The notes under the pieces: generated by a model
The model's database searches: none
The model's input: the letters and a program-made list of their open reading frames with translations, nothing else
What the model was told of the DNA's origin: nothing
Part shown: piece after piece, positions 6,970-8,589 of the stretch
Position numbering within the stretch: the stretch's first letter is position 1
How the letters are laid out: each line of letters starts with the position of its first letter
Made by a program: the position numbers and the translations under genes
From: Candidatus Kaiserbacteria bacterium RIFCSPHIGHO2_01_FULL_46_22
GTDB taxonomy: Bacteria > Patescibacteriota > Minisyncoccia > Phycocordibacterales > UBA918
Reading direction: 5' to 3'
DNA length: 37,813 nucleotides
Assembly: GCA_001779595.1 (NCBI GenBank)
Contig: MFKO01000008.1
Location: forward strand, 153,139-190,951

Positions 6970-6997
6970 TTGATAAAAAAATCCTTTGTCGTATAGT
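6970..6997 (+). promoter_or_regulatory. promoter for the E2/E1-like operon
   Basis: TTGATA-16 bp-TATAGT upstream of RBS gggag and ATG 7032. Confidence 0.65.
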
Positions 6998-7031: not shown

Positions 7032-7583
7032 ATGTCAGCAAACACTGAATCTGAGGACGATATCAAGCTTCAGTATCTCTGCTTCTGCGAGAATCCTCTA
7101 CGAAGCACTGATCAGATCCTGCGCGACTACGAAGTGCTCAAGGCTCACCCTCGTGTGACCGGAATCGCTTTTCATAGCCCGTATGTCCTGATGATAGGAA
7201 CCGACGAAATTGTTGTTACCGAAAATCACAAGAAACGTTTGATCGGTGAATTCATCATATTCCTGATTCGGAAGAAAGTGGAAAGTTACTGGGAAATAGA
7301 CTTTCGCTTCTGGAACGTCACCAACACACTCACCGTATCCGTCGAGGGGAATGAGTCGGTATATGTTCACCCACACATATATGTGACCGACGATGACTTC
7401 ATTGGCTGTCCGAGTGGCCAGCTCTGCATTAATCACGGTCAGTTCGATGTCTATCAGTACATCAGAAGAGGAGAAATGCATTATGCTGCCCCGCGTCTTA
7501 TTGAGATTTTGGAGACGTATCCGACGGGTACTGCGTTTCATGGTGCGGACAATTGGCCATTGTGGAGAAAGAAAGATGCTTGA
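7032..7583 (+). CDS. E2/UBC-like protein (ubiquitin-conjugating-enzyme-like)
   Basis: VYVHPHIYVTDDDFIGCPSGQLCINHG resembles the E2 HPNI...G.ICL signature with a candidate catalytic Cys; overlaps the downstream ThiF-like gene. Confidence 0.6.
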   Translation: MSANTESEDDIKLQYLCFCENPLRSTDQILRDYEVLKAHPRVTGIAFHSPYVLMIGTDEIVVTENHKKRLIGEFIIFLIRKKVESYWEIDFRFWNVTNTLTVSVEGNESVYVHPHIYVTDDDFIGCPSGQLCINHGQFDVYQYIRRGEMHYAAPRLIEILETYPTGTAFHGADNWPLWRKKDA

Positions 7584-8277
7584 TACAAAGAGACATAAGC
7601 AAATCTTTAATCCGGAGTCCTTTTCGATGCCAGTCCACATTGTTGGCTGCGGCGGAATGGGTAGCCGGGTTGCGGAAGGAATGGTGCGCATGGGGGTTGG
7701 CGTTGCTGACAAGAGTCCGATTCATCTCTATGACGCGGACATATTTGAAGCGCACAATCTAACCAACCAGTGGACAACTTCTTCCCGTCTTCATATGAAA
7801 AAAGTGGAAGTCGTTCGTTCTCTGATGTTGGAGGTCAATCCCCAGGCATCGATCATTATTAATCCTGTGCGTTTGCAGGAGGAGACGGCACTGTCTGGAG
7901 TCGTATTCATTTGTGTGGATTCGATGAAAGACCGCCAGGCACTGATTGAGAAGGTTATGAAAAAGCCTTCAGAAGTGCATTGTGTGATCGAAGTGCGTAT
8001 GGATGCCGGAGTAGGGGTAACTCACTGTTTCAACCCAAACAATCAAAAGCAACTGGATTGCTGGCGATTGTACTGGTTTCCTGACAGTGAAGGAGACAAT
8101 ATGCAAGGCTGCGGCGGCGCGCAGTCGATCATATCAGCGATCTACGCGACGACGGCAATGGCGCTCAAGCAGTTTGAGCACTTTGCCCGCAGTAAAAACA
8201 CTATCGATATGCAGAATCGGGTCTATCAAGACTTTGATGCCTGTACTATAAAGTCGGAACAGTGGCCAGCCGCTTGA
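7576..8277 (+). CDS. ThiF/E1-like adenylyltransferase (ubiquitin-activating-like)
   Basis: VHIVGCGGMGSRVAEGMVRMG (Rossmann), IHLYDADIFEAHNLTNQW, VFICVDSMKDRQ, MQGCGGAQSIISAIYATTAMA; start overlaps upstream stop (ATGCTTGA). Confidence 0.85.
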   Translation: MLDTKRHKQIFNPESFSMPVHIVGCGGMGSRVAEGMVRMGVGVADKSPIHLYDADIFEAHNLTNQWTTSSRLHMKKVEVVRSLMLEVNPQASIIINPVRLQEETALSGVVFICVDSMKDRQALIEKVMKKPSEVHCVIEVRMDAGVGVTHCFNPNNQKQLDCWRLYWFPDSEGDNMQGCGGAQSIISAIYATTAMALKQFEHFARSKNTIDMQNRVYQDFDACTIKSEQWPAA

Positions 8278-8302
8278 CGCAACTGTAACTTGCTACTAGA
8301 GT
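8274..8302 (+). promoter_or_regulatory. promoter for the 49-aa peptide
   Basis: TTGACG-17 bp-TAGAGT; the -35 overlaps the E1-like stop codon. Confidence 0.6.
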
Positions 8303-8356
8303 AATGATTGGACCGCAGGTTGTGGTTCATTGTTGAACGCTGAAAGGAGAACAGCA

Positions 8357-8506
8357 ATGCGTATGCAAGAAGCTCTTGCCGCCCGTGCCAGTGGACAGAT
8401 CGTGGACACTCGCTCGATCCCCCGTGCGCCCGCGGATGTCGGCGGTGGAGGATCGTCCGTCACCCAGAACGACGGCACCAAGGAACGGTCCGTCACTCTC
8501 GGCTGA
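8357..8506 (+). CDS. 49-aa peptide MRMQEALAARASGQIVDTRSIPRAPADVGGGGSSVTQNDGTKERSVTLG
   Basis: own promoter, strong RBS gaaaggaga, terminator after; not in the ORF track (below length cutoff). Confidence 0.65.
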   Translation: MRMQEALAARASGQIVDTRSIPRAPADVGGGGSSVTQNDGTKERSVTLG

Positions 8507-8539
8507 GCAGTACTGACTGTCAGTCTCATAAAACAAAAA

Positions 8540-8562
8540 CCCTCGCGATGGTATCGCGAGGG
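8540..8562 (+). terminator. terminator after the 49-aa ORF
   Basis: ccctcgcgat ggt atcgcgaggg then tgttttta. Confidence 0.8.
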
Positions 8563-8589
8563 TGTTTTTATAATTTTGATTGGATTTGT

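Follow-up and report, generated by a model that had tools for sequence, protein, structure and literature searches.

A three-gene E2-E1-peptide locus in Patescibacteria as a candidate conjugation system with a short, disordered-looking modifier

To our knowledge, all free-standing modifiers of E1-E2 pairs are beta-grasp proteins. The one well-known disordered modifier is Pup, and its enzymes are unrelated to E1/E2; the Pup ligase PafA is glutamine-synthetase-like, and Pup is joined via its C-terminal Glu. In the published descriptions, Pup is a short, intrinsically disordered protein modifier that is joined through its C-terminus (PMC3511204, PMC5286830). Bacterial operons that combine E2, JAB, E1 and Ubl genes were described as type 6d (Iyer et al. 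2006, PMC1779556), and Bub and Bil, systems of this operon kind that were named later, are mentioned in PMC13373217. The conjugation performed by CBASS Cap2 uses the C-terminus of a cGAS-like enzyme as substrate (PMC10097602). Enzymes of this kind can therefore work on a protein that is not of the beta-grasp type. In the literature searched, which was largely open-access and included few preprints, no description of a short disordered modifier that works with an E1/E2 pair was found.

The stretch of DNA analyzed here (the window) comprises 37,813 nucleotides of a contig from Candidatus Kaiserbacteria bacterium RIFCSPHIGHO2_01_FULL_46_22. The genome (647 kb, 97% complete) of this ultra-small bacterium belongs to the Patescibacteria and shares its order with Candidatus Kaiserbacteria CG10_59_10. 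An earlier note on this DNA had described an E2-like protein overlapping a ThiF-like protein with both glycine-rich motifs, followed by a peptide with a strong ribosome-binding site, a GGGG run, a terminal Gly and a terminator. When the open reading frames and the flanking signals were read again, each of these features was found as described (Table 1). The two enzyme frames overlap in ATGCTTGA, and the sequence of the peptide is MRMQEALAARASGQIVDTRSIPRAPADVGGGGSSVTQNDGTKERSVTLG. The arrangement is not due to chance, since it recurs in nine other genomes.

Table 1. Features of the E2-E1-peptide locus (window positions) and the hairpins of four homologous loci (positions of the locus named).
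Feature	Position	Strand	Basis or remark
Promoter-like site, E2-E1 pair	6970..6997	+	TTGATA-16-TATAGT, 10/12; consensus match only
E2-like (UBC-type) conjugating enzyme, 183 aa	7032..7583	+	VHPHIY...GQLCI core; homologues, profile, model
E2-like HPH motif	7368-7376	+	sequence motif
E2-like predicted catalytic Cys132	7425-7427	+	conservation among homologues
Minimal E1/ThiF-type activating enzyme, 233 aa	7576..8277	+	Pfam match, homologues, model
E1 GCGGMGS nucleotide-binding loop, residues 24-30	7645-7665	+	sequence motif
E1 predicted thioester Cys179, within GCGG (residues 178-181)	8110-8112	+	motif and conservation
Promoter-like site, peptide gene	8274..8302	+	TTGACG-17-TAGAGT; overlaps E1 stop codon
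Shine-Dalgarno AAGGAG, peptide gene	8344..8349	+	7 nt upstream of ATG
49-aa disordered-looking peptide, predicted modifier	8357..8506	+	C-terminus ...RSVTLG; contains GGGG
Intrinsic terminator, 3' of peptide gene	8539..8563	+	11-bp stem; fold z = -5.6
E1-peptide hairpins	L013 6686-6760; L036 4880-4960; L039 5490-5545; L040 5318-5375	- for L036	

The E1-like protein matches Pfam ThiF with 57 bits against a cut-off of 28.1, and its AlphaFold (AF2) model has a pLDDT of 91.5. The best Foldseek match of this model in the PDB is UBA5/ThiF; UBA5, ThiF, MoeB and Cap2 are found with E-values down to 1e-13, which agrees with the adenylation fold expected by the earlier note, and MccB, PaaA and AclA are also among the structural matches. 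The protein combines a Rossmann-type adenylation domain with the GxGxxG motif and the conserved D, N and K of the superfamily; G24, G26, G29, D53, N61 and K76 are invariant across 26 homologues. Cys179, within GCGG, is kept in 25 of these 26 and is the sole broadly conserved Cys of the protein, which makes it the natural candidate for a thioester Cys. In a seven-row alignment of E1 proteins, divergence was too high for a pattern search. The homologue without the conserved Cys belongs to L050 (4482-6057), an E2-E1-Ubl locus without JAB whose Ubl, of 68 aa, ends in ARNG.

The E2-like protein is divergent. Pfam, NCBIfam, PADLOC and PHROGs contain no family for it or for the peptide. A profile of 21 homologues searched against the PDB matches almost exclusively E2 enzymes with weak E-values (0.029-1), and many of these matches center on the HPN-Cys region. 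The AlphaFold model (pLDDT 86.6) likewise brings mostly E2s, including Cap2, to the top ranks of Foldseek, the best E-value being 0.028 and the TM scores below 0.5. The UBC fold that had been expected is favored by the identity of the matches, whereas their E-values are weak. As in E2/UBC enzymes, an HPH motif is followed by a conserved Cys (C132), which is present in 21 of 21 homologues and is the sole broadly conserved Cys of the protein; its loss among homologues had been named as grounds for abandoning the idea. The E2s of one class, class B (L037, L038 and L054), have a long N-terminal part and lack the HPH histidines. Two individually weak tests agree on the superfamily, and together they point to a divergent UBC-like member.

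The gene order E2, E1, short peptide was found in ten loci from ten genomes of one order. Genome searches gave nine complete loci besides that of the window: L013/L004 (which are the same genome), L036, L037, L038, L039, L040, L043, L045 and L054/L012. L041 was excluded from the peptide count because a contig edge precedes the peptide slot. In each of the ten loci, a scan that was blind to the C-terminus recovered an ORF of 47-63 aa that is preceded by a Shine-Dalgarno sequence and lies 61-138 nt downstream of E1; for L013, the start chosen by the scan lies further upstream in the same frame, and an internal ATG is preceded by AAGGGAG. The co-conservation of the short ORF that the earlier note had looked for therefore holds in all nine further loci with sufficient DNA.

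The peptides end in VTLG, VDLG, VSLG, PTLG, PRLG, YVDG, YLDG, YTG, ESGA and PSLW. Eight of the ten have a terminal Gly, preceded by Leu in five of them, and this frequency has a probability of about 7e-8 at an assumed background of 8%. The ends follow the enzymes: E1/E2 pairs of class A are accompanied by LG-ended peptides (plus the two non-Gly exceptions), and those of class B by peptides ending in DG or TG. Both exceptions, PSLW (L039 5595-5762) and RESGA (L040 5456-5599), are homologous peptides, which a strict Gly-adenylation model leaves unexplained. At the sequence level, the ten short peptides are recognizably homologous. In comparisons against shuffles in which the ends were held fixed, the window and L043 peptides reach a z of 5.3, and those of L037 and L054 reach 5.8; the mean across peptide pairs is just 1.7. 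Their N-terminal segment, M..MQ..L.A, is leader-like and the middle is variable.

A beta-grasp modifier would be about 70-80 aa long, whereas these peptides have 47-63 aa and give no profile match, in line with the earlier statement that the 49-mer is too short for that fold. Order-promoting residues make up 6-20% of the peptides (mean 14%) vs 21-30% of the Ubls of sister loci (mean 26%). The charge-hydropathy index did not separate peptides from Ubls, and for this reason the predicted disorder is based on composition, length and low complexity.

The sister loci provide the best evidence for the role of the peptide. Elsewhere in the order and in the class, the same E1 family has a beta-grasp-like Ubl of 66-111 aa in the peptide's slot, with endings that include RPQGS, TGGR, KNG and LSGG. 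The peptide is predicted to be the modifier because it occupies exactly this slot, which largely supports, as far as gene comparison can, the earlier proposal that the 49-mer is a substrate or modifier. Most sister E1/E2 loci outside the peptide group also have a JAB protease, and the class-level Ubl loci all do. No JAB was found in the locus DNA examined for the ten peptide loci, and a JAB-type search found none in the whole genome of the window.

A single branch of the E1 tree, with a support of 83/81 and recovered in 84% of bootstrap trees, has all ten peptide loci on one side; this is moderate support, below a strict threshold. These loci are placed near the JAB/Ubl loci L006, L009, L011 and L044. 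In the simplest history suggested by these sequences, a short peptide would have taken the place of the Ubl once, and JAB would have been lost. A second JAB-less arrangement was observed in the order. JAB was undetected in six Ubl loci (L042, L046, L047, L049, L053 and L055), in which E1 is followed by a Ubl ending in ..GS or ..SS. In five of them, E1 is preceded by a protein of about 450 aa that has its E2 domain at the C-terminus, behind a further N-terminal part; the contig of L049 is cut upstream of E1.

Compared with the described systems, the locus is closest to type 6d, Bil and Bub. In both, the genes for an E1-like and an E2-like protein form an operon with that for a small protein, which acts through its C-terminal Gly (by prediction in the peptide loci), and the E1s of the peptide loci are directly related to those of such systems within their own order and class. 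In contrast to them, no JAB was found in the DNA examined of the peptide loci, the beta-grasp Ubl gives way to a disordered-looking peptide of 47-63 aa, and E1 and E2 are separate and of minimal size. The likeness to CBASS lies in the E1 and E2 domains of Cap2, which are structural matches of both proteins. Membership in CBASS type II was rejected, as E1 and E2 are separate here vs fused in Cap2 and no CD-NTase is apparent nearby; in the ORFs adjoining the set, no cGAS-like nucleotidyltransferase, effector or JAB protease Cap3 was apparent by eye. The PRTRC ThiF protein is also small and of similar length, and its profile gives a weak match (E 2.4e-7); the score of PRTRC_ThiF is 30.3 bits vs a cut-off of 144.75, and no PRTRC partner genes are apparent, so the set was not assigned to PRTRC. 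The earlier note had likewise held that the set does not match CBASS, Bil or PRTRC and that neither a JAB nor a nucleotidyltransferase is adjacent. Pup, and Pup-like UBact, resemble the proposed modifier in being short, disordered and attached through the C-terminus. The set was not counted as a Pup system, given that a PafA/Dop-type Pup_ligase is absent from the genome of the window and the window peptide ends in Gly, not in Glu/Gln. Finally, MccB, PaaA and AclA are ThiF-fold enzymes that act on short peptides. We know of no E2 in their pathways, whereas an E2 is always present in the peptide loci.

We consider it probable that the locus encodes a minimal E1-E2 cascade, in which a Gly-ended peptide that needs no processing is activated and conjugated. 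E1 would use ATP to adenylate the C-terminal Gly of the peptide, which would pass to a thioester on Cys179 of E1 and then to Cys132 of E2; E2 would finally attach the C-terminus of the peptide to amines of target proteins. A maturation protease would be unneeded, as translation already leaves the terminal Gly of the peptide exposed. On balance, we also lean towards the wider proposal that a disordered, non-beta-grasp modifier of about 50 residues serves a true E1-E2 cascade and replaced a Ubl in evolution. The ancestor would have been an E2-(JAB)-E1-Ubl operon that lost JAB and exchanged its beta-grasp modifier for a short disordered peptide. From gene order, co-conservation, peptide homology, the conservation of Gly and Cys, the predicted E1 fold and the positional replacement, we infer the adenylation, the thioester relay, the conjugation, its targets and its role.

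If this is true, the ubiquitin fold would be separable from ubiquitin-type chemistry, and the peptide would be an E1/E2 counterpart of Pup; if it is really attached to other proteins, it would represent a novel type of protein tag. A clade whose E1/E2 family serves a Ubl in one of its branches but a disordered, Gly-ended peptide in another would offer a natural experiment on what the ubiquitin fold is needed for. With three genes in about 1.5 kb, the set would rank among the smallest conjugation systems, which makes it attractive for reconstitution and protein tagging.

The main rival explanation takes the peptide as a RiPP precursor. Its C-terminus would be adenylated by the ThiF protein as MccB does with MccA, the E2-like protein would be a helper, and the product would be a modified free peptide, such as an antimicrobial or a signal. 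The short length, the leader-like N-terminus and variable middle of the peptide, and the presence of MccB, PaaA and AclA among the structural matches of E1 speak for this reading. This explanation is nevertheless unlikely, as every locus encodes a UBC-type E2 whose Cys is invariant, the closest E1 relatives carry Ubls in the peptide slot, and the conserved feature of the peptide is its Gly end rather than the variable core. Among the adjoining ORFs, none is apparent as an exporter, a peptidase or another enzyme of RiPP pathways. RiPP systems that combine ThiF with an E2 are not known to us.

The expression signals bear on a further alternative. The earlier note had given the peptide gene its own promoter. 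The window site matches the consensus in 9 of 12 positions and is weak on its own, because five such sites occur in the region vs 1.8 expected by chance. The proposal gains from the homologous loci: TTGAC[G/C] is found at promoter distance after E1 in seven of the ten loci, namely the window and L013, L036, L038, L039, L040 and L043, with a spacing of 16-17 nt to a -10-like hexamer. The chance of such a promoter-like site in a single locus is 3-8% (25% in L043). In L013, L036, L039 and L040, a GC hairpin of 13-15 bp with a U-rich tail lies between E1 and the peptide; CTTGA(C) is in or beside its loop, and TTGAC has the spacing of a -35 element to a -10-like hexamer. A terminator of the E2-E1 pair thus seems to overlap the promoter of the peptide gene, an arrangement that would allow the modifier to be produced apart from its enzymes.

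An apparent promoter of its own, at 61-138 nt from E1, and the two peptides without a Gly end could also mean that the E1/E2 pair serves an unlinked Ubl, the peptide being an independent small protein, e.g., a regulator or antitoxin-like partner. This is improbable. The peptide always stands where the sister loci have their Ubl, its C-terminal Gly is conserved, its phyletic range is that of the E1 clade, and no beta-grasp-like Ubl ORF was seen near any of the ten loci; separate transcription would also be needed by an abundant modifier. That the set is a functionless, degenerate remnant of an E2-JAB-E1-Ubl operon would agree with the missing JAB and Ubl and with the very divergent sequences, but is very unlikely given the intact reading frames and conserved catalytic motifs of ten loci from several families, the peptides, which have kept a Shine-Dalgarno sequence, their homology and in most cases a terminal Gly, and the promoter-like site retained in most loci.

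In the family of the window, the peptide type occurs in two genomes out of 49, that of the window and G1046 (L045), and in the family of G072, it occurs in seven of 70, with G992 (L041) outside the count owing to its contig edge. Six of the seven loci of the G072 family are situated directly before comEC, in the neighborhood recJ-rnhA-mscL-comEC, and the pre-comEC interval of 20 relatives in this family without the peptide type (L106-L125) contains no E1 or E2. The E2-E1-peptide set is an accessory cassette, and a role in defense or stress is possible. The pre-comEC interval behaves as a cassette site, with other gene sets nearby in some relatives; L113, for instance, has a possible radical-SAM protein.

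No relatives were found when plasmids, phages and IMG/VR were searched with single proteins of this type. Two phage-like contigs found by a two-row E1 profile proved to be JAB-type systems. The contig scan gave one true relative, L013; its other candidate, L014, was discarded as a TcdA-like ThiF. A further E1 match, in the genus of the window (G1181, L128), is likewise of the JAB type and lies on a phage-like contig. In L128 (1480-3085), the JAB gene is apparently split by a homing-endonuclease-like ORF, perhaps as an intein or intron.
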